Shown piece by piece: positions 18,987 through 32,937 of a stretch of DNA of 36,739 nt. The DNA lies in contig NZ_LMER01000020.1 in assembly GCF_001426435.1 (NCBI RefSeq), positions 45,815-82,553 on the forward strand, read 5' to 3'. The stretch comes from Angustibacter sp. Root456 (GTDB lineage: Bacteria > Actinomycetota > Actinomycetes > Actinomycetales > Angustibacteraceae). Each line of letters starts with the position of its first letter. Within the stretch, counting starts at the first letter, position 1. The notes beneath the pieces are model-generated. The model saw only the letters and a program-made list of their open reading frames with translations. It did no database searches and was not told the DNA's origin. Made by a program: the position numbers and the translations under genes.

Positions 18987-19087
18987 ATGAGCTGTTTCGA
19001 CCGTCGATCTTGGAACCTGAACTCTTGGCTGCACCCAGGGGGGTGGTATTGCTCGGGTCGGGGCCAGCGTCTGCCGATAGGGCTTGC

Positions 19088-20668
19088 ATGGGGCACGTCG
19101 CGCAACCCGCCTCCGGGACGGAGGCTGACCTGGCACGCCAGGCGATCTCGCGTGCCCTCGACGCCCTCGAGCTGGTGCCGTACGACGATCCCGCCGCCGC
19201 GGCAGCGCCCGCGCTCGAGCTCGCTCAACGTGCGGACGCCCTCGGGCTCCTCGACCTCGTGCACCGCGCGCGCCTCGTGCACGCCGACGTCATCGGCCGC
19301 GAGGGCGACACCGCCGGCGCCGGCAGCATCGCCCGCCAGGTCAACGAGTGGGCGGCCGAGAAGGCCGACGAGCACCTGCTCGCGCGCAGCGAGCGGCTGC
19401 TGTCGGCGTTCTACTCGCGCATCGGCGACATGCCCACGGCGCTCGAGCACGCCGTGCGCGCCGTCGAGCTGCTCGGCGCCACGGCGCGACCCCGGCTCGT
19501 GGCCGACCACCTCATGGGCCTGGCGCTCGCGTACGCGCGCACGAGCTCGTTCGACGCCGCACGCGACCGCTTCGCCACCGTGCTCGAGATCGCCGACGAG
19601 CTCGACGACGCCAGCCTGCGCATCGCCGCGCTCAACAACCTCGCGTACGTCGAGTACTGGGCTGGCGAGCCGGAGGCGTCGATGCGCGTCGCGCTGGAGA
19701 TGCAGCGCGTCAGCGAGGCGCACGCGCTCGCGCTCGACGCGTCGTTCCTCGACACGGTGGCCCGCGCTCAGATGCTCATGGGCGACTACGAGGCCGCCGA
19801 GCGCACGCTCGCCCCCGTGCTGGGCGAGGACGGCGAGGGCCTGTCGCGCGAGTCCGACAGCCTCCCCGAGGTGCTGCTCACGCTGGCCGAGTGCCAGCGG
19901 ATGATCGGGGCGACCGACCGCGCGTCCGCCAGCCTCGCCCGCTCCGCCGAGCTGTGCGAGCAGCGCAACCTCGAGGAGGTGCGCGTGCGCGTGATGGAGG
20001 AGCAGGCCAGAGTGCTTGCGGCACAGGGCGACTACCGTGCGGCGTACGAGCAGCACCGCGAGTTTCATGCCGCCAGCCAGGCGATCTTCTCGTCCGAGCG
20101 CGATGCGCGGGCGCGCATCCTCGCGACGGTGTTCGAGACCGAGGAGGCCGTGCGCAGCAGTAAGCGGTTCCGCGAGATGTCGCTGCGGGACCCGCTCACC
20201 GGGCTGTACAACCGGCGCTACGTCGACGACCGCGTGCCGTCGGTGCTCAGCCGCTCGCGCACCCACGCCACGTACGTGTCGGTCGCGATCCTCGACCTCG
20301 ACCACTTCAAGGCCGTCAACGACCAGCTCTCGCACGACACCGGTGACGAGGTGCTGCGCCGCCTCGCGCCGCTGCTGCAGAGCGGGGCCGGTGACGACGG
20401 TTTCGCCGCGCGCCTGGGCGGTGAGGAGTTCCTCGTCGTGCTCCCCGGGTTCGACACCGAGCAGGCGGCGCGCCGCTGCGAGACCCTGCGGCGCGTCGTC
20501 CGAGAGCACGGTTGGCGCGAGGTCGTCGGCGACCTGCCGGTCACCGTGAGCATCGGCGTCGCGACGACGTTCGCCGGCGCGCAGACGTACACGGCGCTGC
20601 TCGCGGAGGCCGACCGGTGCCTCTACGCCGCCAAGCGCGCCGGCCGCGACCGCGTCGTCTCCTCCTGA
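19088..20668 (+). CDS. TPR-GGDEF diguanylate cyclase
   Basis: A 526-aa soluble protein. Residues about 20-330 are helical repeats of TPR type (for example LARTSSFDAARDRFATVLEI-like and YEAAERTLAPVL segments). A coiled linker (SSERDARARILATVFETEEA) leads into a GGDEF domain beginning at DPLTGLYNRRYVDD, with LDLDHFKAVND and the active-site GGEEF at 444-448. No RxxD inhibitory site is present (GDDG at the expected place). It should make c-di-GMP from two GTP, with TPRs as partner or signal input. The ATG at 19088 fits homologues; upstream reading frame overlaps the dacB promoter region. It is followed by a long inverted repeat and convergent dtd. Confidence 0.9.
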   Translation: MGHVAQPASGTEADLARQAISRALDALELVPYDDPAAAAAPALELAQRADALGLLDLVHRARLVHADVIGREGDTAGAGSIARQVNEWAAEKADEHLLARSERLLSAFYSRIGDMPTALEHAVRAVELLGATARPRLVADHLMGLALAYARTSSFDAARDRFATVLEIADELDDASLRIAALNNLAYVEYWAGEPEASMRVALEMQRVSEAHALALDASFLDTVARAQMLMGDYEAAERTLAPVLGEDGEGLSRESDSLPEVLLTLAECQRMIGATDRASASLARSAELCEQRNLEEVRVRVMEEQARVLAAQGDYRAAYEQHREFHAASQAIFSSERDARARILATVFETEEAVRSSKRFREMSLRDPLTGLYNRRYVDDRVPSVLSRSRTHATYVSVAILDLDHFKAVNDQLSHDTGDEVLRRLAPLLQSGAGDDGFAARLGGEEFLVVLPGFDTEQAARRCETLRRVVREHGWREVVGDLPVTVSIGVATTFAGAQTYTALLAEADRCLYAAKRAGRDRVVSS

Positions 20669-20716
20669 CCCCCGCCTGACCCCGGCCGACCCCGCCCCCC
20701 TCGCGCTACCGGCCCT

Positions 20717-20784
20717 CCGGCAAATTCCCCGGAATTTGTACGCCTAGGTGGTCGCAGCCGTACAAGTTCCGGGGAATTTGCCGG
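20717..20784. terminator. 26-bp-arm inverted repeat between convergent genes
   Basis: Arms 20717-20742 and 20759-20784 are complementary at 25 of 26 positions around a 16-nt loop. The arms are unusually A/T-rich for this genome (AAATTCCCCGGAATTTG core), and each arm is itself almost palindromic. It lies between the stops of the TPR-GGDEF gene and dtd, so it is a probable bidirectional terminator. It has no T-tract. Confidence 0.72.
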
Positions 20785-20796
20785 GGCGGGGAGAGG

Positions 20797-21222
20797 TCAG
20801 GCCTCGAGGAGGATCGTGACCGGGCCGTCGTTCACCAGCTCGACCTGCATGTGCGCTCCGAACCGCCCGGTGCTCACCTCGAGGCCGCGTTCGCGCAGGG
20901 CCGCGACGACGTCGTCGACGATCGGCTCGGCCACCGGCCCGGGCGCCGCCGCCGACCACGACGGACGCCGTCCCTTGCGCGTGTCGGCGTAGAGCGTGAA
21001 CTGACTGACCACGAGCAGGGGCGCGCCGAGGTCGAGGGCCGAGCGCTCGTCGTCCATGATCCGCAGGTCGGCGATCTTGTTGGCGATGGCAGCCACCTGA
21101 GCCGGGCCGTCGCCGTGCGTCACGCCGACGAACACGAGCAGCCCCGGCCGGTCGAAGGCACCGACCACCTCGCCGTCGACCCGCACGCCGGCCCGGCTCA
21201 CCCGCTGCACGACCGCTCTCAC
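20797..21222 (-). CDS. dtd: D-aminoacyl-tRNA deacylase
   Basis: A 141-aa proofreading enzyme that removes D-amino acids (and glycine from tRNA-Ala) after mischarging. Two family signatures are complete: [17 protein letters not shown] and the C-terminal [11 protein letters not shown] with the cross-subunit Gly-Pro motif. The GTG at 21222 starts the canonical [12 protein letters not shown]-terminus and overlaps the stop of the histidine phosphatase gene by three bases. It is the last gene of a minus-strand run and ends 12 bp from the long inverted repeat; its stop region, TGACCTCTCCC, matches the end of the dispersed element. Confidence 0.95.
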
Positions 21223-21772
21223 ACCGGCTCCTTCGTCGACCCGATCCGGTACTCCCAACCGTCCTGCCAGCGGAAGTCCTCGTGCGCCAGGCTCTCCAGG
21301 GCCATCCCGTGCACGAGGTGCTCGAAGGCCCACCGAGTGGCGATGTGCCCGATCACGAGCACCCGCCGGCCCTCCCAGCGCAGGGCCAGGTCGTCGAGGA
21401 ACCGGCCGACGCGCGTGACGGCCTGGCGCCAGCTCTCGCCGTGCGGGTAGGGCGAGTCGAGGTGGTCGGCGCGCGCGGCATGCAGCTCGGCCGCGGGCAT
21501 GCCGTTGCGCGTCCCGTAGTCGCACTCCCGCAGCCGCCAGTCGAGCAGCACGGGCACCGGCGCGGCCGCGAACGCGAGGGACGCGGTCTCGACCGCGCGG
21601 GCGAGGTCCGAGCTGAAGACCGCGACGATCCCGTCGTCCGCCCGGCGGCGGCCGAGCTCGCGCGCCTGCTCGCGGCCCTGCTCCGACAGCTCTCCCGGGC
21701 CCGGCCGGTGGCGCGCCCCCGCTCGTTGTCGACGGTCGTGGCGTGGGTCTCGAACACCACCTCGACAGCCAC
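21219..21772 (-). pseudogene. Histidine phosphatase family protein, frameshifted
   Basis: Two adjacent frames encode one typical actinobacterial histidine phosphatase of about 184 aa. The 5' frame starts at GTG 21772 with GAGGGAGG at a good distance and reads [19 protein letters not shown] then RATG. The 3' frame continues [50 protein letters not shown] and [11 protein letters not shown] to the TGA. They join at about 21699-21703, where five bases replace an expected six, a one-base deletion in a G/C run. The catalytic His is in THAT rather than RHG, as in this subfamily. It is either a young pseudogene or a sequencing error; the intact rest of both halves favours a recent event or error. Confidence 0.78.
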
Positions 21773-21785
21773 GGCGTGCCCTCCC

Positions 21786-22733
21786 TCAGCCCAGCGGAAG
21801 GGCGCGGACGGCGCCCACGGGCTCACCGTGCCCGAACACCGGAGCCTCGCCGAGGAACTCGATCGCCGAAGGCTCGATCCCCAGCGCCAGCAGCGCCTGC
21901 TGCATCACCACCGGCCGGGCCCGCTCGCCGCCGTCCCCGATCTTGATGGCCGCGGAGTGCCCGGACGGCAGCGCCGCCGCGTACACCGCCTCGGCGCCGT
22001 CCTTGGCGATGAGGCCGGGCACCGACTGCATGAGCCGCGTGACGTCGCGCCGCGTGCCGCCGACGTACTCGGGGTGCGCCCGGACGGCGGAGCCCACCTT
22101 CCCCTCCGGCGTGTCGCCCGGCGCCACGGCCAGCGCCGCGAACGAGCGCGCGAGGGCCGTCAGCGAGATCGCCATGACCGGCGCCCCACAGCCGTCGACG
22201 CCCGTGGCGCTGACGGGCTCGCCGCCCAGCCGCCCGAGGGTCGCGGCGATGGCGACCTGCAGCGGGTGGTCGGGGTCGCGGTAGGTGTGGAGGTCCCAGC
22301 CGGCCACCACGCACGTGGCGAGCATCGCCGCGTGCTTACCTGAGCAGTTCTGCGCGAGCGATGACTTGTCGCGTCCGGCCGCGATCCACGCGGTGCGCTC
22401 CTGCGCGTCGTACGGCAGGTCAGGGGTGTTCTGCAGGACGCTGTCGTCGAGCCCAGCGTGCGCCAGCACCCGTTGCACCGCCTCGAGGTGGAACGCCTCG
22501 CCCGAGTGGCTGGCGGCCGCGAGCGCCAGCAGCTCGCCGTCGAGGTCGAGGCCAGCGCTCACCATGGCGGCGGCCTGGGCCAGCTTGTTCGACGACCGGG
22601 CGAACATCGGCGCGTCGACGTCGCCGACCGCGACGATCACGTGCCCGTCCGGGTCGAGCACGACGGCGCTGCCGTGGTGCACCGACTCGACGAAGCCTGA
22701 CCGGACCACCTCAGCGACGGGCACGACAGCCAT
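21786..22733 (-). CDS. Asparaginase, Rhizobium etli-type (asparaginase_II family)
   Basis: A 315-aa protein of the asparaginase_II family, unrelated to E. coli AnsA/AnsB. It should hydrolyse asparagine to aspartate and ammonia. Family signatures are [23 protein letters not shown], the CSGKHAAM motif and VDGCGAP, which carry the Ser-Lys pair and Cys residues described for the R. etli class as nucleophile and zinc ligands. Length is close to the family norm. The ATG start has TAGGGT seven bases upstream, overlapping the stop of the GGDEF-EAL gene ten bases away, so it may have its own leaderless promoter. Confidence 0.88.
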
Positions 22734-22740
22734 GCCCTGG

Positions 22741-22746
22741 ACCCTA
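22741..22746 (-). promoter_or_regulatory. Putative leaderless promoter -10 of the asparaginase gene
   Basis: TAGGGT on the minus strand, seven bases before the ATG. Its first three bases are the TAG stop of the GGDEF-EAL gene. Confidence 0.4.
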
Positions 22747-25053
22747 GTGGGACGCTCCGGGTGCAGCGAGCTCGGCCTCGGTGACCACGTCGAACACCCT
22801 GCCCGACAGCAGCATCCGGCTGATCTCGTCGGCCTCGACAGGACGGCTGAAGAGGTAACCCTGCCCGAGCTCGGCGCCCTGCTGCTGGCAGGCCCGCAGC
22901 TGCTCGACGGTCTCGATGCCCTCGGCGATGGTCTGCAGGTCGAGCCCCGCGGCGACGTCGATCACCGAGCGCACGAGCACTGCGGTCCGGGCGTCGCCGA
23001 CCAGCGCGCCCACGAACTCGCGGTCGATCTTGAGGACGTCGGCGTCGAAGCGCCGCAGGTAGCGCAGTGACGAGTAGCCGGTTCCGTAGTCGTCGATCGC
23101 GACGGAGATGCCTTCGGCGCGCAGCTTCTCGACCAGACCGGCCGCCGTCTCGAGGTCTTCCATCAGCGCGCTCTCGGTGATCTCGAGCACGAGCTGGTCG
23201 GGCGAGATCGCGTTGCGCCGCAACGCCTCCTGCACGATGACGGGCAGCGTGGGGTCGCCCAGCTGCCGGGCCGAGAGGTTGACGCCGAGTCCGAGCCGGA
23301 CGTCGGGGGCCAGCTCGGCCCAGGCCGCCAGCTGGGCCAGCGACGTGTGCAGCACGTGCGTGCCGAGGCGACCCATGGCCCCGACCTGCTCGGCCATGGG
23401 GATGAACTGCACGGGGCTGATCTCGCCGAGGTCGGGGTGGCGCCAACGCAGCAGGGCCTCCACGCCGCGCAGCACACCGGTGCTCAGGTCGACGACCGGC
23501 TGGTAGAGCAGGTGGAACTCGGCGAGGTCGCGCGTCGCGATCTCCTCGCGCAGCCGGATCACCGACGCGGCGCGGGTGCGCTCGACGCCGGTGAGGACGA
23601 CGGCGGGCGCGTGCTGCACGTCCTTGTCGGCCTTGGCCTGGTACATCGCGACGTCGGCGTGGGCGAGCAGGTGCTCGGAGTCGCGTGCCTCGGCGCGCCC
23701 GGGTGCCCGCTCGTCGAGCACCACGCCGACGCTCGGGCGCACGCTGAACTCGCGGCTGCCGATCACGAACGACCCGTCGAAGGCGTCGACGACCCGCTGC
23801 GCGAGCGGTTGGCCGCCGCCGCGCACGGCCTTCTGGCAGATGGCGAACTCGTCGCCGCCGAGCCGCGCCACGAGGCCGTCGGCCGGCATGGCGGCGAGCA
23901 GCCGGCGCGCGCACTCCTGCAGCAGGCGGTCGCCGGTCTCGTGGCCGTGGGTGTCGTTGACGTCCTTGAAGTCGTTGAGGTCGACCATCGCCACGCCGAC
24001 GGGGTGGGCGGTGACGTCGGCGAGGGCCTGGCCGAGGAACTGCAGGAAGCCGCGCCGGTTGGCCAGACCGGTGAGCGGGTCGAGCAGCGTCTCGGCCCGC
24101 GCGGTGCGCTCACGCGCCTCCAGCTCGGCGACGAGCTCGTGATGGTCGTGGGCGGCCGCCGCCTGCCGGGCGAGCATCCCAAGGCCGGCCAGCAGGATGG
24201 GCAGCATGTCGGCGCGGCGGAAGTCCCCGCCGTTGACGAAGGTCCATCCGGCGACGAGCAGAGCCACCGCGAGCGGGCCGTAGGGCACGACGAGCTCACT
24301 GAGCACCGTGCCGTTGGCGAGGGACTCGGGGGGTTCGGTCGGGCTGTCGCGAGCGCCCCGGGCGAAGGCGGTGCCGAGCACGGCCACGAGGCCGACCTGG
24401 TAGAGCTGGGCGATCCAGCCGGTGTTGTCGTAGGTGCCACCTGCGACGGCGACGGCGTACGCGGAGTCCGAGACCAGCAGCAGCGCCAGCCCGAGGCCAC
24501 CGCGGCGCAGGAAGGCGCGGGCGTGGGGCACCGCGCGCGGATACACCGACACGATCGCGGCGAGCGTGAAGGCACCGATGATCGCGTACGACGCCCCGAC
24601 GAGGTCGCCGCCGCCGCCGCCGGCGTGGACGCGTAGCTGCAGCGAGAGGTACCACAAGGCGGCGGCTGCCGTGACGCCCTCGGCCAGCGCCCCCACGCGC
24701 AGCCCGCGGTAGGTGGGGACGAGCACGACGCAGGCCACGGCGAACGGCGCGTACGACAGGCCGAGCAGCTGCATCGGGCTGCTCGGGTCGGCGGGGTGCC
24801 CGGTGAGCACCACGGGCAGCGTCGCCGCCACGCCCGCCAGGAGCAGGCCGGCGCCCAGCAACCGCTTGGAGGCGGTGAGCCCGTCGCGCCGCTGGGCCAG
24901 GACGAGCAGCGCCACCGCCGCGGCCAGGGCGGTGCCGGCCCGCACCACGACGGAGAACACGGGACCCCACGAGACGGCGAGCACGCTGAGCGTCGCCAGC
25001 ACGGCGCCGGTCAGCGCGATGAGGGGCCGCCGCGCGCGGCTCATGGCTGGCAC
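22744..25053 (-). CDS. Membrane GGDEF-EAL c-di-GMP turnover protein
   Basis: A 769-aa protein. The first ~300 residues hold about eight to nine hydrophobic segments (a MASE-like sensor). A short helix precedes DPLTGLANRRGFLQF. The GGDEF motif is at 399-403 (RLGGDEFAI) and the RxxD inhibitory site is absent (PADG). The EAL domain has EALLRW at 532-537, DDYGTGYSSLRYL and LKIDREFV, so phosphodiesterase residues look intact. Either or both activities are possible; the EAL side looks sound. It is the third gene of the minus-strand c-di-GMP run. Start is GTG at 25053 or ATG at 25044; neither has a clear Shine-Dalgarno. Confidence 0.92.
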   Translation of the reverse strand: MPAMSRARRPLIALTGAVLATLSVLAVSWGPVFSVVVRAGTALAAAVALLVLAQRRDGLTASKRLLGAGLLLAGVAATLPVVLTGHPADPSSPMQLLGLSYAPFAVACVVLVPTYRGLRVGALAEGVTAAAALWYLSLQLRVHAGGGGGDLVGASYAIIGAFTLAAIVSVYPRAVPHARAFLRRGGLGLALLLVSDSAYAVAVAGGTYDNTGWIAQLYQVGLVAVLGTAFARGARDSPTEPPESLANGTVLSELVVPYGPLAVALLVAGWTFVNGGDFRRADMLPILLAGLGMLARQAAAAHDHHELVAELEARERTARAETLLDPLTGLANRRGFLQFLGQALADVTAHPVGVAMVDLNDFKDVNDTHGHETGDRLLQECARRLLAAMPADGLVARLGGDEFAICQKAVRGGGQPLAQRVVDAFDGSFVIGSREFSVRPSVGVVLDERAPGRAEARDSEHLLAHADVAMYQAKADKDVQHAPAVVLTGVERTRAASVIRLREEIATRDLAEFHLLYQPVVDLSTGVLRGVEALLRWRHPDLGEISPVQFIPMAEQVGAMGRLGTHVLHTSLAQLAAWAELAPDVRLGLGVNLSARQLGDPTLPVIVQEALRRNAISPDQLVLEITESALMEDLETAAGLVEKLRAEGISVAIDDYGTGYSSLRYLRRFDADVLKIDREFVGALVGDARTAVLVRSVIDVAAGLDLQTIAEGIETVEQLRACQQQGAELGQGYLFSRPVEADEISRMLLSGRVFDVVTEAELAAPGASH

Positions 25054-25065
25054 ATCAGATGTATC

Positions 25066-25084
25066 GGCACAGAGGAGCTGTGCC
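25066..25084 (-). terminator. Small hairpin at the end of the second cyclase gene
   Basis: A perfect 7-bp stem (GGCACAG/CTGTGCC) with a 5-nt loop, beginning at the last base of the TAG stop at 25084-25086. It lies in the 30-bp gap before the GGDEF-EAL gene, so it may attenuate or stabilise message between the two genes. Confidence 0.45.
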
Positions 25085-26127
25085 TACAGGGCTCTGGCGT
25101 GGGCAGGTTGCAGGCCGTGGAGCACGTCGTCGAAGCCGTTGGTGAGCACGCGGTCGCGCCCGGCCTCCTTGGCCCGGTAGAGCGCGCGGTCGGCGTCGCG
25201 GAGCGTGAGGTGGGGGTCGGCTCCCGCCTGGTGGCAGCTGGCGCCGCCCGACCACGTGATGTGCGGGTAGTGCTCGGCCCAACGTTGGCGCAGCCGGGCG
25301 GTGACCGACGCGGCGCCGAGGCCAAGGCCGTTGTCTTGCGGCAGCACGAGCACGAACTCCTCGCCGCCGTAGCGCGCGACCTGGTCGCGTCCCCGGACGA
25401 CGGCGAGCAGCGTGGTGGCGAAGTCGACGAGCACCTGGTCGCCGTAGTCGTGCCCCCCGCTGTCGTTGACCTGCTTGAAGTGGTCGAGGTCGAGCACCAG
25501 CACGACGTCGCCGGGGCTCAAGGTCGCGAGCGTCGTCTCGAGCGCGCGCCGGTTGGGCAGGCCGGTGAGCGCGTCCGTCTCGGCCTGCTGCTGCAGGTCG
25601 TTGGCGCGGTCGAGGTTGGCGGCCGCGCGCAGCGCGAGCACGTCGGCGAGCACCGCCCAGATCAGTGCGGCCAGGACGAGCCGCACGACCTGCTCGGGGC
25701 CGACGTGCCGCTGCATCGCCACGAACGTGACGACGGCGGCGGGCAGGGTCCGCAGCCCGGTGTGCACGGGCGCCACGACGCCGACGTACATGAACCACAG
25801 GGTCAACAGGGCGACGTACGCGGGCGCGGCTGAAGGGGCCCCGACGCCGAGCGCCACGAGCACGACCATGGCGGCGTGGGGGTAGGCCGCGGTGGTCCAG
25901 CGGTCCCAGCGGCGCCAAGGTAGGGCGGCGCTGATCAGCCCGACCAGCACCATCGCGGTGGCGGCCCCGAAGACCACCCAGGGGACGCCGTCCTCCTCGC
26001 TCACCCACCAGCCCGACAGGCCGATGGTGAGGCCCTGGAAGACCATCAGCCAGCGGCCGAGCCGGGCGGCGTCACTGGTGGAACGCACGTCGACGACTGT
26101 GGCGACCCGCTGCCTGAACCTGCTCAC
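25084..26127 (-). CDS. Six-TM membrane diguanylate cyclase, paralogue B
   Basis: A 347-aa protein with six predicted membrane helices (about 23-42, 50-71, 81-97, 102-120, 125-138, 146-166) and a GGDEF domain. DALTGLPNRRALE opens the domain; LDLDHFKQVND binds metal and GTP; GGEEF is at 254-258 and an RxxD inhibitory site (RGRD) at 245-248, five residues before it. It should be an active cyclase under product inhibition. GTG at 26127 overlaps the preceding gene's TGA by three bases; a longer frame runs into that gene. It is a clear paralogue of the neighbour, with motif positions identical to the residue. Confidence 0.92.
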   Translation of the reverse strand: MSRFRQRVATVVDVRSTSDAARLGRWLMVFQGLTIGLSGWWVSEEDGVPWVVFGAATAMVLVGLISAALPWRRWDRWTTAAYPHAAMVVLVALGVGAPSAAPAYVALLTLWFMYVGVVAPVHTGLRTLPAAVVTFVAMQRHVGPEQVVRLVLAALIWAVLADVLALRAAANLDRANDLQQQAETDALTGLPNRRALETTLATLSPGDVVLVLDLDHFKQVNDSGGHDYGDQVLVDFATTLLAVVRGRDQVARYGGEEFVLVLPQDNGLGLGAASVTARLRQRWAEHYPHITWSGGASCHQAGADPHLTLRDADRALYRAKEAGRDRVLTNGFDDVLHGLQPAHARAL

Positions 26128-27200
26128 GACCAAGTTGTCGTCGCAACGGCCTGCGGGCTTGAGCCCACGATCTGCTGGGCTGGCGGCGGCGCGCCGAACT
26201 CGTCCGGCGCGGTGGCGGTGACGACGCGGTTGCGCCCGGCGGCCTTGGCGGCGTAGAGGGCGCCGTCGGCGCGACGCAGCGTGGCGTAGGGGTCTTCGGA
26301 CGGCGCGACGTCGGCCGCTCCCGCGGACCACGTGACGTCGTGGCCCAGGCGGTGCCACGACTCGCGGACCCGGTGCAGCACGGCCGTCACCACCGCTGGC
26401 GACGCCGCCTGGTGGAGCACCAGCACGAATTCCTCGCCGCCGAGCCGGGCGACGACGTCGCTGGCCCGCACGGCCTCACGCAGCACGCGGGCGAAGTCGA
26501 CCAGCACGGCGTCGCCGTACGCGTGGCCGTGCCGGTCGTTGACGAGCTTGAAGTGGTCGAGGTCGAGCACGACGACCGCGTCGCCGGGCGCGGCGCCGAC
26601 GAGGGCCGTGTCGAGGCCGCGCCGGTTGAGCACACTGGTGAGGGCGTCGGTCGCGGCCTGGCGCTCGAGGGCGGCGGTGCGTCCGCTGCTGAATGCGGCG
26701 CGAGCGGCCATGGCCTCGGCGATCACGACCCAGGTGCAGCCCGCGAGCACGCCACGCACGAGGTGGCGTGCGTCGAACTCGCCCAGCATGAGCAGGTAGA
26801 CCGACACCGCAGGCATCAAGAGCGTCAGCGACGTACCCGCCGGGGCAGCGAGGCCCGCGAAGAGGAACCACAGCGCGAGCAGGCCGGCGTACGGCGCCGC
26901 CGCACGCGGCGGCCCCAACGCCAGACAGCCGAGCACGCCGATGGCGACGACGGGCAGCGTGGCGACGCTGCGGCGAGGCCAGCGCTGCCAGGGCAGAGCC
27001 GCAGCACTCAGCCCCGCGACGATCAGCCCGACTCCGACGGCGAGCGGGACGCCGGCCGCACCGGCCGAGGCGTGCAGCCACACGCCGGTGCTCGCGACGA
27101 CCGCGCCCTCGAAGACGACGAGCACGATGCCCAGCCGCGCGGCAGCGGCGGTGTCGGTGACGTCCAACACCGCGGCCAACCGGCGCACGAGGCCCTGCAC
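26124..27200 (-). CDS. Six-TM membrane diguanylate cyclase, paralogue A
   Basis: A 358-aa paralogue of the next gene. The shared N-terminus reads VLDVTDTAAAARLG (VVDVRSTSDAARLG in the partner), both have AALPW at 67-71, and GGEEF falls at 254-258 in both. The RxxD site is RASD at 245-248. The first cyclase motif is DALTSVLNRRG, slightly altered from DALTG. It ends in an extra Pro/Ala-rich tail. The six-TM region has no known sensor name that I recognise. GTG at 27200 has a GAAGAT -10-like box six bases upstream. It is probably first in the run of three c-di-GMP genes. Confidence 0.92.
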   Translation of the reverse strand: MQGLVRRLAAVLDVTDTAAAARLGIVLVVFEGAVVASTGVWLHASAGAAGVPLAVGVGLIVAGLSAAALPWQRWPRRSVATLPVVAIGVLGCLALGPPRAAAPYAGLLALWFLFAGLAAPAGTSLTLLMPAVSVYLLMLGEFDARHLVRGVLAGCTWVVIAEAMAARAAFSSGRTAALERQAATDALTSVLNRRGLDTALVGAAPGDAVVVLDLDHFKLVNDRHGHAYGDAVLVDFARVLREAVRASDVVARLGGEEFVLVLHQAASPAVVTAVLHRVRESWHRLGHDVTWSAGAADVAPSEDPYATLRRADGALYAAKAAGRNRVVTATAPDEFGAPPPAQQIVGSSPQAVATTTWS

Positions 27201-27260
27201 GAGGTGATCTTCGACTCGTGGCGGCCGGCGCTTGAGGATTCGCGCAGGCGTGCCGCGCCG

Positions 27261-27650
27261 TCAGCGGGTGTAGTCGTCCTCGAGCCGCTCGATGTCGGAC
27301 TCGTTGAAGTCACCGAACGCGATCTCGAGCAGCCGGCCGGCGCGGTCGCTCTTGTTGGCCATGCGGTGGACGGCGCCACAGGGCACCCACACGTCGTCGC
27401 CCGGCTGCGCCGTCCACGAGCGGTCGTCGACGGTGACGTCGATCGGCACGTCGAGCACGTGCCAGAACTCGCCGCGGTGGCCGTGCTTCTGCAGGCTCAG
27501 CCGGTGGCCGGGCTCGACGGTGATGATCTTGACCGTGACGCGCTCGTTCGACACGAACTGCTGGAACTGACCCCAGGGGCGCTCGGCGACGAAGAACGCC
27601 TCGCGCGGGTCGGCGACCTGCGGCTGCGCGTCGTCCGGCCGGCTCACCAT
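27261..27650 (-). CDS. Stand-alone type II phosphomannose isomerase (cupin)
   Basis: A 129-aa single cupin matching the C-terminal isomerase half of bifunctional mannose-6-phosphate isomerase/GDP-mannose pyrophosphorylase proteins. Markers are ERPWGQFQQF, VEPGHRLSLQKHGHRGEFWHVL (cupin motif 1 with metal-binding His and Glu) and QPGDDVWVPCGAVHRMANK (motif 2). It should interconvert mannose-6-P and fructose-6-P. The ATG at 27650 overlaps the DUF2516 stop by seven bases, suggesting coupling. A 60-bp gap separates it from the first cyclase gene, so read-through is possible. Confidence 0.85.
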   Translation of the reverse strand: MVSRPDDAQPQVADPREAFFVAERPWGQFQQFVSNERVTVKIITVEPGHRLSLQKHGHRGEFWHVLDVPIDVTVDDRSWTAQPGDDVWVPCGAVHRMANKSDRAGRLLEIAFGDFNESDIERLEDDYTR

Positions 27651-27982
27651 GGACCGTAGGGGCCGGCTGACCCGCCGCGGCCGCCGCCTTGCACTTGGTT
27701 CAAGGCCGGCCGCACGTCGACGAGGTAGACGGCCGCTGCGACGAAGGCCGCGAGGTTCAGGAAGTTCAACGGGCTGAGGAAGGCGCCGTTGAACGAGATG
27801 AAGCCGATCGCGACCGCTACGCCGAGGATGATCATCCACCGCTGCTTGGTCATCTTGCCCGCGGCGACATAGGCGTCGGTACGGCGCCGGGCGCCGTCGA
27901 CGAGGGCGACCAGCTGGACGATGAAGGCCAGCACACCCAGCGCGAAGAAGACGAGGGCCTGCGCGGACCCGAGAGCGAACAT
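27644..27982 (-). CDS. DUF2516 family membrane protein
   Basis: A 112-aa protein with three membrane segments (about LVFFALGVLAFIVQLVALV, MIILGVAVAIGFISF and LNLAAFVAAAVYLV) and the family end VDVRPALNQVQ, then a Gly-rich tail. DUF2516 is restricted to Actinobacteria and sits next to HbhA-like genes in Mycobacterium (Rv0476). Function unknown. The ATG has TAGACT six bases upstream, a likely leaderless start. Its stop overlaps the cupin gene. Confidence 0.88.
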   Translation of the reverse strand: MFALGSAQALVFFALGVLAFIVQLVALVDGARRRTDAYVAAGKMTKQRWMIILGVAVAIGFISFNGAFLSPLNFLNLAAFVAAAVYLVDVRPALNQVQGGGRGGSAGPYGPW

Positions 27983-27988
27983 GAGAGG

Positions 27989-27994
27989 AGTCTA
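27989..27994 (-). promoter_or_regulatory. Putative leaderless promoter -10 of the DUF2516 gene
   Basis: TAGACT on the minus strand, six bases before the ATG, located between the terminator of the upstream gene and the start. Confidence 0.5.
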
Positions 27995-28007
27995 GGCGAG
28001 GACGTGA

Positions 28008-28038
28008 AGGGGACGGGCCGGCGCGCGGCCCGTCCCCT
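28008..28038 (-). terminator. Terminator after the HbhA-like gene
   Basis: A perfect 12-bp stem (GGGGACGGGCC core) around a 7-nt loop, 15 bp after the stop of the HbhA-like gene. No T-tract follows. Confidence 0.7.
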
Positions 28039-28053
28039 CCGACGCTCGATGCG

Positions 28054-28689
28054 TCAGTCGCCGACCTTGCTCGCGCTGGCCTCGGTCGCCTTCGCGGCAG
28101 CCGCAGCGGTCTTGCGAGCGCTGGTGACGGTGGCCTTCGCGGTGCTCTTCGCCCGCGTGGTGCGCTTCTTGGCGGTCGTGGTGGTGCGCTTGGCGGCCGA
28201 CTTGGTGCCGGTCGTGCGCTTGGCCACGGACTTCTGCGTGTCGGCCACGACCTCGCTGCCCTCGCGCTTCGCCGTGGTCACCGTGGCCTTGGCCGCGGTG
28301 CGGGTGTCAACGGCCGCGTGGCGGACGGTGGTGACGGCGGCCTTGCCGCGCGAGAGCGTGACCTTGCCCTGGGCGATGAGGTCCTGCGTCGCCTTCTGGC
28401 GCTTGATGCGGGCGACGAGCTTCTCACCGCGCGCCGCGAGGTCCTCGTACGCCTCCTCGGCCTTGCCGGCCAGCTCGATCGACTTGTTGAGGGCCACGAC
28501 CGGCACCTGCTGGGCCTGGCCGGGCAGCGCCTTGACGTCGAGGTTGAGGCGGGCGACCTCGACGCGCAGCTGCGCGCCACGAGCCCGAGCGTCGCGAGCC
28601 TTCTCGACCACGAGGTCGGTGGCGCCCACGAGGGCCAGCACCGGCGTCCGGTCGGTGACCGTCTTGCGGATGTCGTTCACGAGAGTCAT
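28054..28689 (-). CDS. HbhA-like helical protein with Lys/Ala/Thr-rich tail
   Basis: A 211-aa protein. Residues 1-105 form a helical region (PVLALVGATDLVVEKARDAR through EEAYEDLAARGEKLVARI), like mycobacterial heparin-binding haemagglutinin. From about 135 the sequence becomes a basic KRTTGTKSAAKRTTTTAKK-type tail, resembling histone H1 or HbhA's repeats. There is no signal peptide, as in HbhA. AAGGAG seven bases upstream is a good Shine-Dalgarno; the ATG overlaps the XRE regulator stop (ATGA). Synteny XRE-HbhA-DUF2516 matches Rv0474-Rv0476. Role may be surface, nucleoid or lipid-body binding; this is inference. Confidence 0.82.
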   Translation of the reverse strand: MTLVNDIRKTVTDRTPVLALVGATDLVVEKARDARARGAQLRVEVARLNLDVKALPGQAQQVPVVALNKSIELAGKAEEAYEDLAARGEKLVARIKRQKATQDLIAQGKVTLSRGKAAVTTVRHAAVDTRTAAKATVTTAKREGSEVVADTQKSVAKRTTGTKSAAKRTTTTAKKRTTRAKSTAKATVTSARKTAAAAAKATEASASKVGD

Positions 28690-29243
28690 GAGGTGCTCCT
28701 TCGGTCGCTGCTTCGGGTGGTCCGTGCGGTCGACGCCGCCGTCGACCGAGTCGTCGGGGCCGGCTTGCGCGCGGCTTTCTTCGCCGTCTTCGTGGCGGCC
28801 TTCTTGGCGGCCTTCTTCGTGGCCTTCGCAGTGGCCTTCGAAGTGGCCTTGGTGGCCGCGCGGGGCGCCGGCCGGGCGGCCGGCTCCTCGACGCGGGCGT
28901 TCTCAGCGCAGAACGACTCGTAGATGTCGAGCAGCACGCGCTTCTGCCGCTCGCTCAGGCCGGCGTCGCCGAGGATCGCGGCCTTCACCTCGACCTGACC
29001 GGCGTCCTGCTCCTCGAGGATCCCGGCCCGCACGTACAGCGACTCCGCACTGATCCGCAGGCCCTTGGCCAGCGACTGCAAGATCTCGGCGCTCGGCTTC
29101 TTCAGACCGCGCTCGATCTGGCTGAGGTAGGGGTTGCTGACGCCCGCCACCTCGGCGAGCTGGCGCAACGACAGCTTGGCGCTGTGCCGCTGCTCCTTGA
29201 GGAAGCCGCCGAGGTCAGCCAGGTCGTCCTTGATCGAACTCAC
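28686..29243 (-). CDS. XRE-family regulator with Lys/Ala-rich tail
   Basis: A 185-aa protein. A Cro/C1-type helix-turn-helix covers about residues 7-62 (LGGFLKEQRHS, LRQLAEVAGVSNPYLSQIERG, SAEILQSLAKGL). A middle helical part ends in VLLDIYESFCAEN. The last 60 residues are Lys/Ala/Thr-rich (AKATKKAAKKAATKTAKKAA), echoing the tail of the adjacent HbhA-like protein. This matches Rv0474 in position. GTG at 29243 is chosen because the HTH begins soon after; a longer frame adds 12 residues. Upstream it carries a GCTTGC-N14-GCAAGC inverted repeat that could be an operator. Confidence 0.87.
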   Translation of the reverse strand: MSSIKDDLADLGGFLKEQRHSAKLSLRQLAEVAGVSNPYLSQIERGLKKPSAEILQSLAKGLRISAESLYVRAGILEEQDAGQVEVKAAILGDAGLSERQKRVLLDIYESFCAENARVEEPAARPAPRAATKATSKATAKATKKAAKKAATKTAKKAARKPAPTTRSTAASTARTTRSSDRRSTS

Positions 29244-29328
29244 GCTTACTACTGTGCTTGCTGCAGTTAGCAGATGCAAGCGAGCAGGCCGTGAGCCCCC
29301 TCACACGCCCAGGGCTGATCATCCGCTG

Positions 29329-29359
29329 GGTGGTACACGAGTACTACCCCAGGTAGCAT
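29329..29359 (+). promoter_or_regulatory. Promoter/operator of the MazEF-type pair
   Basis: GGTGGTAC-ACGA-GTACTACC (29329-29348) is an inverted repeat with one mismatch, overlapping a TGGTAC -35-like box. After 17 bp comes TAGCAT (29354-29359), six bases before the antitoxin ATG. A third half-site GGTAG follows. The layout fits autorepression by the antitoxin and a leaderless mRNA. Confidence 0.55.
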
Positions 29360-29365
29360 CCCGGT

Positions 29366-29590
29366 ATGAAGGTCAGCATCAGCCTGCCTCGCGAGGACAT
29401 CGAGTTCCTCGACTCCTACGTCCACGAGCAGCGTCGCCCGTCACGCTCCGCTGCCATCCACGACGCCATCGCTGTCTTGCGGGCGGCTCGCCTACAGAGT
29501 GACTACGCGGCTGCGTTCGACGAGTGGGAGCACAGCGGCGAGGCCGCCGCATGGGAGGCAGTCACGGGCGACGGTCTCGGCGCTCGATGA
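29366..29590 (+). CDS. Ribbon-helix-helix antitoxin of a MazEF-type pair
   Basis: A 74-aa protein. The N-terminal MKVSISLPREDIEFLDSYV is a typical RHH (MetJ/Arc) strand and first helix; RPSRSAAIHDAIAVLR forms the second helix. The C-terminal half (YAAAFDEWEHSGEAAAWE) is acidic and Trp-containing, as toxin-binding tails of MazE-type antitoxins are. Its stop overlaps the toxin start (ATGA). No Shine-Dalgarno; a TAGCAT -10 six bases upstream suggests a leaderless mRNA. It should bind both the operator and the toxin. Resembles mycobacterial MazE antitoxins. Confidence 0.88.
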   Translation: MKVSISLPREDIEFLDSYVHEQRRPSRSAAIHDAIAVLRAARLQSDYAAAFDEWEHSGEAAAWEAVTGDGLGAR

Positions 29591-29934
29591 GGCGCGGCGA
29601 GATTCGGTATGCCGATCTCGAACCAGCTCGGGGATCAGAGGCAGGCAAGGTCCGACCGGTCGTCGTCGTGAGCAACAACGGGGCGAACGCCGCCGCAGCC
29701 GCTCGGGGACGAGGCGTCGTGACGATCGTGCCTCTCACGTCGAACGTCGACCGGGTGTTCGACTTCCAGGTGCTCGTGCCAGCGGTGGCATCCGGACTGC
29801 CGAGGGACTCCAAAGCACAGACCGAGCAGGTGCGAAGCATCGACGTCCGTCGACTTGGACCATCCGTCGGCGCGTTGCCGTCCCAGCTCGTCGTCGAGCT
29901 AGGGCACGCCTTGCGGCTTCATCTCGGTCTGTGA
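29587..29934 (+). CDS. mazF: MazF-type mRNA interferase toxin
   Basis: A 115-aa PemK/MazF toxin. RRGEIRYADLEPARGSEAGK carries the N-terminal core and active-site Arg loop; VRPVVVVSNNGAN is the signature strand; VVTIVPLTSNV includes the catalytic Thr/Ser region. It should cleave single-stranded RNA at a short motif that cannot be predicted here. The ATG overlaps the antitoxin stop, giving translational coupling. The pair interrupts the region between the XRE-HbhA block and RsiG and converges on rsiG seven bases later, so it looks like a separate cassette. Confidence 0.9.
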   Translation: MRRGEIRYADLEPARGSEAGKVRPVVVVSNNGANAAAAARGRGVVTIVPLTSNVDRVFDFQVLVPAVASGLPRDSKAQTEQVRSIDVRRLGPSVGALPSQLVVELGHALRLHLGL

Positions 29935-29941
29935 CCGAGGG

Positions 29942-30514
29942 TCACTCGGCGGCGAGGACGTCCTCGACGCTCGTCTCGCCCTCGCGGTAGCGGCGGCCGA
30001 CCTCGGTAGTGAGCAGGTCCATCACACCCTGCACCCGGTGGCGCGACTCGCTCACCGACGACTCCAGCGCCGCCAAGTGCTCGAGGGCGTGGGTCAGCTC
30101 GGCGTCGCTGAGGGACGACGGGTCGCTGGCTCGGACGTCGTCCACGGCGCTCTCGGCCGCCCGGCGGTGCTCACCCACCCGGCTCGGCTCGGCGGTGAGG
30201 TGCCGCCCGAGGCCGTGGTCGCTGCGCGGGCCGTCGGCGAGCACGCTGGCCAGGTCACGCGCCAGCTCTTGGTCGGAGCGGCTGCCGGCCGGAACGGCGC
30301 CGTCACCGGCGCGGCTGCGCTGCTCGGCGCGCAGCAGGTCCATGCGCCCCTGCAGCAGGCGGCGGGCGTAGCTGAGGTCGGCCTCCTCCTGCTCGGCGAG
30401 GTGCCGCCGCTCGCGCAGCTCGTCGATCGGCAGGTCCGCCAGACCCTGGGCGAAGGACGGTGCGAGGACGCGGTCGATCGGTCGGCGTCCACCCTCGTGC
30501 GGCTGCGTCGTCAT
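29942..30514 (-). CDS. rsiG: RsiG-type c-di-GMP-binding anti-sigma factor
   Basis: A 190-aa helical protein, often named 'aerial mycelium formation protein'. It contains two exact copies of the RsiG c-di-GMP signature E(X)3S(X)2R(X)3Q(X)3D: E44-S48-R51-Q55-D59 (EADLSYARRLLQGRMD) and E151-S155-R158-Q162-D166 (ESSVSESRHRVQGVMD). In Streptomyces RsiG binds a c-di-GMP dimer through both motifs and then sequesters the flagellar-type sigma WhiG. The ATG has GAGGA upstream and the gene sits seven bases after the BKACE stop, last in a minus-strand operon. No WhiG gene is in the window. Confidence 0.93.
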   Translation of the reverse strand: MTTQPHEGGRRPIDRVLAPSFAQGLADLPIDELRERRHLAEQEEADLSYARRLLQGRMDLLRAEQRSRAGDGAVPAGSRSDQELARDLASVLADGPRSDHGLGRHLTAEPSRVGEHRRAAESAVDDVRASDPSSLSDAELTHALEHLAALESSVSESRHRVQGVMDLLTTEVGRRYREGETSVEDVLAAE

Positions 30515-30520
30515 GGATCC

Positions 30521-31378
30521 TCAGCTCGACTGGCTCGGTGCGCGGCGGTCGCGCACAGCGAGCAGGCTACGCGCTTCGTCGGTGGACAGGGGCGGTCTCT
30601 GCATCACGGTCGCGAGGTGCGCTGCGCGCTCGACGAGCTCGGCGTTGTCGCGCACCGGGCGGCCCTTGGCGAAGACGAGGTTGTCCTCCATACCCACTCG
30701 CAGGTGGCCACCCATCGCGAGCGCCGCGGCGGCGATCGGCAGGTGCGTGCGCCCGATGCCGGTGGCCGACCACGACGTCACCTCGGCGGGCAGCATCTGC
30801 ACCCCGGCCACCAGCGCCTCGACCGTGCCCGGCATGCCACCCGGCACGCCGGTGACGAAGTCGACGTGCACCTTGCCGCCGTAGGGCAGGCCGTAGGTGT
30901 CGATGAGCCGGCGCAGCGCCGCGACGTGGCCGAGGTCGAACAGCTCGAACTCCGGCACCACCTCGCGCTCCTGCGCCTGCTGGTAGAGCTGGCCCATGAA
31001 CGGGTAGGGGTTGAGGAACACGTCGTCGCCGAAGTTCGTGGTGCCGCAGGTGAGCGAGCACGAGTCCGGCTCGGCGTCGAGCACGTTCAGGCGCGACTCG
31101 AGCGGGTCGTGCACGCTGCCGCCGGTCGACAGCTGCACGACCAGGTCGGTCTGCTCGCGCAGTGCCTGCACGGTGTCGCGCAGCCGCTGGGGGTCGAGCG
31201 TGGGCTGGTGCTCGTCGTCGCGGATGTGCACGTGGATGAGCGACGCACCGGCCGCTTCGCAGGCCTTGGCCTCGGCCACCAGCTCGTCGAGCGTGGTGGG
31301 CAGCTGCGGGACGTCGGACTTCGCGGTCTCGGCGCCAGTGGGGGCGACGGTGATCATGGTGCCGGGCATGGCCGACAT
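30521..31378 (-). CDS. BKACE / 3-keto-5-aminohexanoate cleavage family enzyme
   Basis: A 285-aa DUF849/BKACE enzyme. These zinc-dependent TIM-barrel enzymes condense a beta-keto acid with acetyl-CoA. The zinc site is in AGASLIHVHIRDD; other family segments are VVQLSTGGS, GGMPGTVEALVAGVQMLP, GGHLRVGMEDN and GRPVRDNAELVER. Specific substrate cannot be told. It lies eight bases after the YgfZ gene and before rsiG in the same strand. The start could also be the internal ATG of MPGTMITVAPTG. Confidence 0.88.
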   Translation of the reverse strand: MSAMPGTMITVAPTGAETAKSDVPQLPTTLDELVAEAKACEAAGASLIHVHIRDDEHQPTLDPQRLRDTVQALREQTDLVVQLSTGGSVHDPLESRLNVLDAEPDSCSLTCGTTNFGDDVFLNPYPFMGQLYQQAQEREVVPEFELFDLGHVAALRRLIDTYGLPYGGKVHVDFVTGVPGGMPGTVEALVAGVQMLPAEVTSWSATGIGRTHLPIAAAALAMGGHLRVGMEDNLVFAKGRPVRDNAELVERAAHLATVMQRPPLSTDEARSLLAVRDRRAPSQSS

Positions 31379-31385
31379 CCTGCCA

Positions 31386-32417
31386 TCAGGGCGCGACGAC
31401 GAGCTCCTGGGCGGCGCTCACGCCGTCGACGATCAGGACGGCGTCGGGGGCCGTGTTGCGCTTCACCAGGGCCAGGGCCACCGGACCGAGCTCGTGGTGG
31501 CGGGCCGCGGTGGTGACGTGACCGATGCGCCGCCCGTCCAGCTCGACGTCCGTGTTCGAGGTGGGCAGGTGGTGGGAGGAGCCGTCGAGGTGCAGCATCA
31601 CCAGGCGCCGCGGGGGGCGGCCGAGGTTGTGGACGCGGGCGATCGTCTCCTGGCCGCGGTAGCAGCCCTTGCGCAGGTGCACCGCGGTGCGCAGCCAGTC
31701 GACCTCGTGCGGGATCGTGCGGTGGTCGGTCTCGAAGCCGAGCCGGGGCCGCCAGGCCACGACCCGCAGCGCCTCGGCGGCCCACGTGCCGGCCAGGGGG
31801 CGCTCACCGACGACCTCCGCCAGCTGCCGGCGCGGGACGAGCAGCTCGCGCCAGGCACGGCCGTTCGCCGGGTGGTCGGCCTCGTCGACCGCCGCGTACG
31901 ACACGCTGCCCGGCGCCACGTGCGGCCACGGATCGCGCCAGGCCAGCGGCTCGCCGTCCGCGCTCTCGCGACCGACGGGCTCACCGAGCACGGCGAACTC
32001 GGCCGAGCGGTCGGTGACCTCGACCCGGAGCATGAACTGCATGCTGCGCAGCCACGCGATGAGCGCCTCGGCGGTGCCCGGCTCGGCCGTGATCCAGGCG
32101 CTCTCGCCGTCGTCCACGACGTGCAGCGCGTGCTCGACGTGTCCCTTGGGGCTGAGGATCAGGGCCTCGGTGGAGGTGCGCGGTGCCAGGTCGGTGAGGT
32201 GCTGGCTGGTGATGGAGTGCAGCCAGGAGAGGCGGTCGGGGCCGGTGACCGTGACCACCGCGCGGTGCGAGAGGTCGACGACGGCCACCCCCTCCTCGAG
32301 CAGCCGCTGCTCGCGGGTGGGGTCGCCGTAGTGCCAGGCGACACCGGCGTCGACACCGTCGGCCGCCACCGCACCGGGTCGGGTCAGCAGCGGGCTCGTG
32401 AGGGTGTCGAGGCTCAT
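31386..32417 (-). CDS. ygfZ: Folate-binding protein YgfZ (iron-sulfur cluster factor)
   Basis: A 343-aa GcvT-like protein. The signature KGCYRGQETIARVHNLGRPP contains the conserved Cys of the KGCYxGQE motif. The N-terminus (VAVVDLSHRAVVTVTGPDRLSWLHSI) is the GcvT-type folate domain. YgfZ uses tetrahydrofolate in repairing or maintaining Fe-S enzymes. It is co-directional with, and downstream of, the nitrobindin-like gene, with a 28-bp gap without obvious signals. Confidence 0.93.
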   Translation of the reverse strand: MSLDTLTSPLLTRPGAVAADGVDAGVAWHYGDPTREQRLLEEGVAVVDLSHRAVVTVTGPDRLSWLHSITSQHLTDLAPRTSTEALILSPKGHVEHALHVVDDGESAWITAEPGTAEALIAWLRSMQFMLRVEVTDRSAEFAVLGEPVGRESADGEPLAWRDPWPHVAPGSVSYAAVDEADHPANGRAWRELLVPRRQLAEVVGERPLAGTWAAEALRVVAWRPRLGFETDHRTIPHEVDWLRTAVHLRKGCYRGQETIARVHNLGRPPRRLVMLHLDGSSHHLPTSNTDVELDGRRIGHVTTAARHHELGPVALALVKRNTAPDAVLIVDGVSAAQELVVAP

Positions 32418-32445: not shown

Positions 32446-32937
32446 TCATTCCACGCGCTTGAGCTGGGCCGACGCGTGGGACTGCATCGGCTGGCCGACA
32501 GCGGCCATGTCCATCACCCACATGAGGTCGCTCTCGACCAGGCCGTACATGCGCTGCGCGGCCGTGTACTCCTTGGCGGTGGGCGTGCGGGCCACCATGT
32601 CGGTGTGCAGGTTGACGCGCGGGCCCTCGACCGACCCGACGTAGATCTCGACGTAGCCCGTCGGGTGGGTGAGCAGCACCTCGAGGTCGCCGTTCTCCCC
32701 CGGACGCCAGAAGCCGGTCTCGCTGGCGAGCGGGCGCACCCGGTTTCCGGCGCCGTCCAGCTCCCACGCCTGGCTGCGGTAGTGCAGGAACGGCCGGCCG
32801 TCGTGACGGAACTCGACCTCCTGGCCGAAGTTCGCCGACTCGATCGTCGGGTAGCCGACGACGCCCGCACCCTCCCAGCGGCCGATCAGCCAGGCGAGCG
32901 GCATGAGCGGGGCGGGCAGGTCAGGGGTGATCTCCAC
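32446..32937 (-). CDS. Nitrobindin-like FABP family heme protein
   Basis: A 163-aa beta-barrel protein. GRWEGAG at 19-25 is the GxWxGxG motif of nitrobindins (THAP4/Rv2717c type). H154 in MQSHASAQLKRV matches the C-terminal proximal heme histidine. It may bind heme and nitric oxide or isomerise peroxynitrite. It starts three bases after the stop of the small membrane gene, so they are a pair. GTG start without clear Shine-Dalgarno fits coupling. Confidence 0.9.
   Translation of the reverse strand: MEITPDLPAPLMPLAWLIGRWEGAGVVGYPTIESANFGQEVEFRHDGRPFLHYRSQAWELDGAGNRVRPLASETGFWRPGENGDLEVLLTHPTGYVEIYVGSVEGPRVNLHTDMVARTPTAKEYTAAQRMYGLVESDLMWVMDMAAVGQPMQSHASAQLKRVE

Follow-up and report, generated by a model that had tools for sequence, protein, structure and literature searches.

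Within a 36,739-nucleotide stretch of the Angustibacter sp. Root456 genome (the window, which comes from contig 20 of an assembly of 20 contigs totaling 3.84 Mb, with a G+C content of 73%), rsiG lies close to four genes for GGDEF proteins, the class that makes cyclic di-GMP (c-di-GMP). In Streptomyces and Rubrobacter, c-di-GMP-loaded RsiG binds the sigma factor WhiG (PMC8325347). The locus raises the question of how the enzymes and the c-di-GMP reader are connected. An earlier inspection of the DNA alone (the sequence-only reading) had proposed that some of these enzymes feed RsiG locally. Our analyses lead us, with moderate confidence, to a different answer: the genes of the four enzymes appear to be members of a larger group, spread over the genome, that carries predicted WhiG/FliA-type promoters, and RsiG, as the sensor, would close a feedback loop on this group. 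The results suggest a genome-wide rather than a local feedback loop, and the proximity of rsiG to three predicted diguanylate cyclases (DGCs) and one predicted phosphodiesterase (PDE) would be mostly incidental.

Pfam matches confirmed that the window encodes four GGDEF proteins, one of which also carries an EAL domain, together with RsiG (Table 1). The RsiG score of 96.9 bits exceeds the curated cut-off of 27 bits, and residues 19-188 align to the Streptomyces RsiG of PDB entry 6pfj (92.6 bits; phmmer to 6pfj_T, 3.9e-25). Tested against the definition of two E(X)3S(X)2R(X)3[Q/H](X)3D motifs, the two c-di-GMP motifs of this protein match at every position (EADLSYARRLLQGRMD and ESSVSESRHRVQGVMD) and have glutamine at the variable position, just as the sequence-only reading had stated. 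By family and motifs, the protein is predicted to bind c-di-GMP and WhiG. All four enzymes keep the GGDEF or GGEEF signature (GGEEF in DgcA, DgcB, and DgcC; GGDEF in Pde) and are predicted DGCs by that signature, with the GGDEF-EAL protein Pde also a predicted PDE. Read by eye, the catalytic residues of what we take to be the EAL signature look intact in Pde, while DgcA has no RxxD at the presumed inhibitory-site position, where DgcB and DgcC have one. A simple scan found seven hydrophobic segments in Pde, N-terminal to its GGDEF and EAL domains.

The evidence for a shared control lies immediately upstream of the four genes. Each is preceded by a -35 element near TCAAG, 15 nucleotides (nt), and a -10 octamer near GCCGATAR that is separated from the start codon by exactly 7 nt, the whole approximating TCAAG-N15-GCCGAYAR. 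These sites were scored against the published consensus TAAA-N16-GCCGATAA (PMC8325347) instead of one trained on the GGDEF genes of this genome, and we required at least 8 of 12 positions. The -35 elements depart from the TAAA of this consensus, reading TCGG (dgcA), TGTA (pde), and TCAA (dgcB and dgcC). The pattern emerged only on anchoring to start codons, since an unanchored scan of the window (TAAA-N14/15/16-GCCGATAA, up to 3 mismatches) returned four 3-mismatch matches, against 1.7 expected. The 7-nt spacing suggests that the mRNAs may be leaderless or nearly so.

Table 1. Genes and promoter-like sites in the window (positions are those of the whole stretch)
Feature	Position	Strand	Description
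dgcA	19088-20668	+	TPR-GGDEF protein; Pfam GGDEF 131.9 bits; GGEEF signature
pde	22744-25053	-	Membrane GGDEF-EAL protein; Pfam GGDEF 118.7 bits, EAL (PF00563) 239.7 bits; GGDEF signature
dgcB	25084-26127	-	Membrane-GGDEF protein; Pfam GGDEF 113.6 bits; GGEEF; RxxD present
dgcC	26124-27200	-	Membrane-GGDEF protein; Pfam GGDEF 107.8 bits; GGEEF; RxxD present; forms tandem pair with dgcB
rsiG	29942-30514	-	Pfam PF22802 96.9 bits, two stretches
dgcA promoter-like site	19053-19080	+	TCGGG-N15-GCCGATAG, 7 nt, ATG; 8/12 to published consensus
pde promoter-like site	25061-25088	-	TGTAG-N15-GCCGATAC, 7 nt, GTG; 9/12
dgcB promoter-like site	26135-26162	-	TCAAG-N15-GACGACAA, 7 nt, GTG; 9/12
dgcC promoter-like site	27208-27235	-	TCAAG-N15-GTCGAAGA, 7 nt, GTG; 8/12
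L-asparaginase II family gene	21786-22733	-	PF06089 352 bits; ends dgcC-dgcB-pde run
BKACE family enzyme gene	30521-31378	-	PF05853 310 bits; directly upstream of rsiG
YgfZ/GcvT-type folate protein gene	31386-32417	-	Pfam GCV_T/YgfZ-type; part of shared rsiG neighborhood
Nitrobindin-like (THAP4 heme-binding) protein gene	32446-32937	-	PF08768 189.5 bits

The same signal extends well beyond the window. A scan of the whole genome with TAAA-N16-GCCGATAA at up to 2 mismatches yielded 32 sites versus 7 for the reversed pattern, several of them just upstream of GGDEF genes. When all upstream in-frame starts were allowed (start codons were predicted, with a median of 21 per GGDEF gene), 15 of the 37 GGDEF genes had a site at a spacer of 7 nt and 4 more at 6 nt, for a total of 19 that includes all four window genes. 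Other in-phase spacers up to 60 gave a mean of 2.05 genes and a maximum of 5. The distance between the -35 and -10 elements likewise peaked at 16 (15 genes), with 9 genes at 15 and no more than 7 at any other distance from 8 to 26. Among 167 genes without GGDEF or EAL, taken from stretches of the same genome chosen independently of the motif, only 4 scored, one of which is fliA (Fisher P = 4e-13); because the GGDEF genes offered more start codons than these controls, as far as a limit of ~190 codons implies, the spacer scan is the fairer comparison. Judged by reading frame length, the products of 12 of the 19 genes with a site stop after GGDEF, and those of the other 7 extend far enough to hold an EAL domain; for the 18 genes without a site the numbers are 11 and 7, so the site-bearing set is not biased toward likely makers or breakers of c-di-GMP. 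A gene ~20 kb upstream of dgcA (L089:9700-10689; C20:44714), whose product is 34% identical to DgcC, also carries a promoter-like site, with a 6-nt spacer.

Outside the GGDEF genes, the candidates include type IV pilus genes. The pattern TCAAG-N15-GCCGA-N10-RTG was too noisy at 2 mismatches (822 matches versus 329 for controls), and we considered its 12 exact matches. Three precede GGDEF genes, and six others precede pilT and genes for an EAL-HDOD protein, an M41 peptidase, two M23-fn3 proteins, and one protein without a Pfam match; of the rest, the match at C16:147438 lies within a gene, and those at C16:166961 and C14:161546 are the remaining two. A similar site, followed by a 44-nt leader, precedes pilB (T2SSE plus MshEN), and the pilB and pilT sites share the TCAAG form. 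A second site in the pilus cluster, at C14:367196, has no long reading frame starting within ~50 nt. The PilB-type ATPase (L394:3341-5005, contig C14) carries an MshEN domain, which binds c-di-GMP in MshE, so the pili may be under c-di-GMP control in both transcription and activity.

The sequence-only reading had proposed searching the genome for a WhiG/FliA sigma factor and for flagellar genes, and both are present. A canonical WhiG is encoded at C18:230468 (279 bits to TIGR02479 and 384 bits to Streptomyces WhiG, 6pfj_A), among genes that we take to be homologues of xerC, frr, and pyrH from their predicted proteins. A second, FliA-type sigma factor at C1:22967 (189.7 bits to the family and 137 bits to the WhiG of 6pfv) adjoins flagellin and apparent further flagellar genes, of which FliM was confirmed by Pfam. 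In the reading that we favor, WhiG would read most of the promoters described above, and RsiG loaded with c-di-GMP would sequester WhiG. High c-di-GMP would then switch off many of the cell's own synthase and phosphodiesterase genes together with type IV pilus genes, low c-di-GMP would release them, and the circuit would thereby feed back on the entire pool of c-di-GMP.

The chief rival holds that the flagellar sigma factor FliA, rather than WhiG, reads the sites, such that the enzymes would be flagellar-class genes and RsiG would control a different set. FliA could be the reader of some sites or even of every one, because flagellin and a flgN-like gene carry the close relative CTCAG-N15-GCCGA; fliM, moreover, has GTAAAG-N15-GCCGATAG, 7 nt, and ATG, and flagellin accompanies RsiG in most genomes of the order that have it (see below). 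The two CTCAG sites nevertheless differ from TCAAG in the -35 element while keeping the same distance to GCCGA, and the TCAAG form is shared by pilB and pilT, much as pilus genes of Rubrobacter have WhiG-type promoters (PMC8325347). We regard FliA as a possible rather than a probable reader of these predicted promoters.

Comparisons across 59 genomes of the order bear on this choice. RsiG was present in 19 of them (18 over the family cut-off) and WhiG, at 274 bits or more, also in 19, with the two co-occurring in 18; the mismatches are G003, which has only a weak RsiG and is 62% complete, and G002, which has only WhiG and is 73% complete. Three genomes of one genus (G011, G029, and G045) encode a sigma factor of 241 to 247 bits, over the family cut-off, and have no RsiG match. 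Flagellin was found in 17 of the 19 RsiG-bearing genomes and in 5 RsiG-less ones. GGDEF matches numbered 10 to 52 per RsiG-bearing genome and 0 to 21 in the others, some counts for the RsiG-bearing genomes possibly being lower bounds.

When the promoter test was applied to individual genomes, sites were found in 9 of 32 GGDEF genes of G001, a member of the same genus, including the dgcB counterpart beside its rsiG (CTCAAG-N15-GACGATGG, 7 nt, GTG), and in 6 of 30 in G043, from another family (one of the six is below the Pfam cut-off). G045, which has no RsiG match but a family sigma factor of 241 bits, had a site in 1 of 16 (2 of its 18 genes fell outside the test), and G035, with no RsiG match and no sigma factor over the cut-off, in 0 of 19. 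In the incomplete G002, where WhiG but no RsiG was found, 4 of the 11 GGDEF genes tested, of 21, had a site at a spacer of 6 or 7 nt. G018 is 92% complete and has both RsiG and WhiG: 1 of its 10 GGDEF genes has a site at 7 nt, and another has an exact CTCAAG-N15-GCCGA 39 nt from its start. Since G018 has no flagellin match and no second FliA-type sigma factor among the sigma factors listed, WhiG is favored as the reader of at least some sites, although the numbers are small.

Several observations weigh against a genome-wide set under WhiG and RsiG. The score cut-off was set after the first matches had been seen, the dgcA and dgcC sites barely pass it at 8/12, and 18 of the 37 GGDEF genes lack such a site, as does rsiG itself in the ~45 nt examined upstream. 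The CTCAG sites of flagellin and the flgN-like gene belong here as well, and G043 retains such promoters despite missing motif residues in its RsiG. Across the 59 genomes, CTCAAG-N15-GCCGAY occurred 234 times in the 19 with RsiG, where reversed-pattern controls gave 99, and 209 times in the 40 others, where they gave 113. Many of these sites read as coding Leu-Lys...Ala-Asp, and this raw count was rejected as too weak a discriminator. Finally, in the order's 19 RsiG genomes the density of GGDEF/EAL genes near rsiG is ~3 times the average, a point taken up below.

Plain coincidence, in which a GGDEF-rich genome happens to hold a small cluster beside a shared neighborhood that already contained rsiG, with no regulatory link, is in our view improbable. 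Four GGDEF genes in ~8 kb are unusual for a genome with 37 GGDEF domains in 3.84 Mb, but that large total speaks for coincidence, as does another cluster of three GGDEF genes at C1:146-155 kb. The single GGDEF gene beside rsiG in G001 encodes a product 59% identical to DgcB and 45% identical to DgcC; because both match this one gene, dgcB and dgcC look like a tandem duplication. The neighborhood, too, is shared. The sequence-only reading had singled out the YgfZ, nitrobindin-like, and BKACE genes as a context worth knowing; these genes are present as described, and together with an asparaginase gene they are found around rsiG in many of the order's genomes, but so common a context gives no functional clue by itself. 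In a separate set of 80 named rsiG loci (many on short contigs, and 5 sharing their rsiG with loci of an unnamed set), BKACE was found in 36, ygfZ in 39, and asparaginase in 52, with an asparaginase homologue within 3 kb of rsiG in 47. In Angustibacter sp. Root456, the run dgcC-dgcB-pde-asparaginase stands beside this shared neighborhood. Coincidence can account for such a location, but not for start-anchored sites on all four window genes and about half of the GGDEF genes.

Whether the cluster is conserved among relatives has a divided answer. Of the 19 genomes in the order that have RsiG, with Angustibacter sp. Root456 counted among them, 7 show GGDEF/EAL genes near rsiG, amounting to 11 genes in ~312 kb, or ~35 per Mb, but they represent only three families, and 4 of the 11 are the window's own. 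The examined stretch around rsiG in G001 holds the asparaginase gene and the dgcB counterpart but no counterpart of pde or dgcA. Among the 80 named loci, a GGDEF/EAL gene lies within 10 kb of rsiG in 7, or ~11 genes in 986 kb; this density of ~11 per Mb is close to the 9.6 GGDEF genes per Mb of the Angustibacter genome, with the provisos that the search profiles had been built in-house from a small number of sequences and that many loci come from metagenome-assembled genomes (MAGs) whose own GGDEF density may differ. We therefore rejected local enrichment of c-di-GMP genes at rsiG as a general rule. The clustering is not general, yet it is not unique to this genome, and for the three families local enrichment stays a lead.

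The ~3-fold density in the order leaves some room for a local link, in which the neighboring cyclases and phosphodiesterase would supply or remove c-di-GMP for RsiG on the spot or would touch WhiG or RsiG directly. A precedent for direct contact is RmdB of Streptomyces venezuelae, a protein with 8 transmembrane segments, GGDEF, and EAL, which binds WhiG and displaces RsiG (PMC13232838). In Pde, too, a hydrophobic N-terminal region is followed by GGDEF and then EAL, and by this architecture Pde might have a direct role like that of RmdB. Nothing in the portions of that report consulted places rmdB beside rsiG (PMC13232838). In one related family, a GGDEF-EAL gene does lie close beside rsiG. The window's pde was rejected as a counterpart of these Quadrisphaera-family genes, however, because all eight tested are only 31 to 35% identical to it, and 6 of the 8 match another gene of the Angustibacter genome better, even though those other genes were compared without most of their EAL part, which favors pde. 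No Pde relative listed from 28 other genomes exceeds 44% identity. Taken with G001, which retains only dgcB, and the lack of clear enrichment around the 80 loci, these results give the local feeding of RsiG envisaged by the sequence-only reading weak support, and we consider it quite unlikely; the direction is probably the reverse, with an RsiG-controlled sigma factor transcribing the enzymes.

The survey of rsiG loci also revealed where the sensor itself changes. Named RsiG relatives include those of Kineococcus, Kineosporia, and Quadrisphaera, and both motifs (all ten residues) are intact in 81 of 99 RsiG rows, of which 5 are duplicates. In all nine loci whose EAL center lies within 1.6 kb of rsiG, from Quadrisphaera and relatives, an RsiG motif is broken, through the motif 2 Asp in six and through several residues of both motifs in three; motifs are also broken in 9 of the other 90 rows, which have no EAL center within 1.6 kb. 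RsiG is intact in L128, a Frankiaceae MAG, although a GGDEF-EAL gene lies 2.9 kb away. Because the nine loci belong to one clade, motif loss beside EAL genes is a lead rather than a test.

In the six loci without the motif 2 Asp (L116, L120, L124, L133, L147, and L079), GGDEF-EAL genes adjoin rsiG on the opposite strand. Five of these PDEs form one family, 70 to 95% alike; that of L147 is more distant (42 to 44% to those), and that of L085, from the group of three loci described next, shares 34 to 35% with them. L120 and L124 have a second, different GGDEF-EAL gene nearer to rsiG. The PDE of L133 (NZ_VDMJ01000057.1), labeled Streptomyces sp. NP160, is 72 to 85% identical to those of Quadrisphaera and relatives, so this species name may be wrong. 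In the other three loci (L083:9080-9610, L084:9591-10133, and L085:9460-10002, from G027, G043, and G058), RsiG has lost Ser, Gln, and Asp of both motifs while keeping Glu and Arg, and an EAL gene, its GGDEF weak or not found, lies ~1.2 to 1.5 kb from rsiG on the same strand. G004 has three RsiG-like genes; the second (L077:8750-9343) has both motifs and sits at the edge of an apparent flagellar gene cluster, ~8 kb from a FliA-type sigma factor and flagellin, and the third (L076:8974-9456) has degenerate motifs.

Within the window, two genes on the plus strand at 29366-29990 possibly form a toxin-antitoxin pair. One encodes a 75-amino-acid protein that by eye resembles a ribbon-helix-helix antitoxin, and the other is a 163-amino-acid reading frame (29499-29990) without a Pfam match that overlaps the end of rsiG.

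The predicted circuit has parallels in known systems. FliA-family promoters of the flagellar class in Escherichia coli include those of c-di-GMP genes, and there, as here, a FliA-family sigma factor would transcribe genes for c-di-GMP turnover; the scale and the fixed start spacing differ, and none of the 14 control genomes had an RsiG match. As in Streptomyces, a canonical WhiG occurs together with an RsiG that has two motifs and aligns along most of its sequence with the Streptomyces protein, but here flagellar genes and a separate FliA-type sigma factor for them are also present, and the candidate regulon consists of about half of the GGDEF genes plus pilus genes. Another parallel is Rubrobacter, where 12 WhiG-type promoters were mapped, 5 of them before DGC/PDE genes and three within the pilus cluster; the (RsiG)2-WhiG switch is believed there to govern type IV pili as well as DGC/PDE genes, and a feedback loop has been proposed (PMC8325347). 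Our sites, predicted from sequence where the Rubrobacter starts were mapped, likewise precede c-di-GMP enzyme and pilus genes, but the Angustibacter RsiG has two motifs, the -35 element is mostly TCAA rather than TAAA, and the -10 box lies 6 to 7 nt from the start codon in 19 of 37 GGDEF genes. As a prediction, the present case would carry the Rubrobacter feedback over to a flagellated relative whose RsiG has two motifs, and would widen it to about half of the GGDEF genes there. We found no open-access paper that joins RsiG with Kineococcus or that joins flagellar sigma factor, leaderless, and diguanylate cyclase; four, including PMC8325347, join WhiG and diguanylate cyclase with promoters and type IV pili. 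No FliA consensus for Actinoplanes appeared in the consulted passages of one paper.

Tentatively, RsiG-WhiG may act in flagellated actinobacteria as a controller of the whole c-di-GMP pool. WhiG would directly transcribe about half of the GGDEF genes, many of them leaderless (6 to 7 nt), along with type IV pilus genes, and c-di-GMP would shut this transcription off via RsiG; in the Quadrisphaera family, sensing may have shifted, with the GGDEF-EAL partner beside rsiG replacing the ligand as RsiG loses its c-di-GMP residues. If this is true, a switch known from sporulation in Streptomyces and suggested for pili in Rubrobacter would become a feedback controller over much of the c-di-GMP machinery, with a sequence signature simple enough for listing candidate targets in other genomes. 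It would bear on how two sigma factors, WhiG and FliA, share out promoters that are nearly alike within the same cell, and on how a bacterium with dozens of GGDEF proteins holds its messenger within limits.

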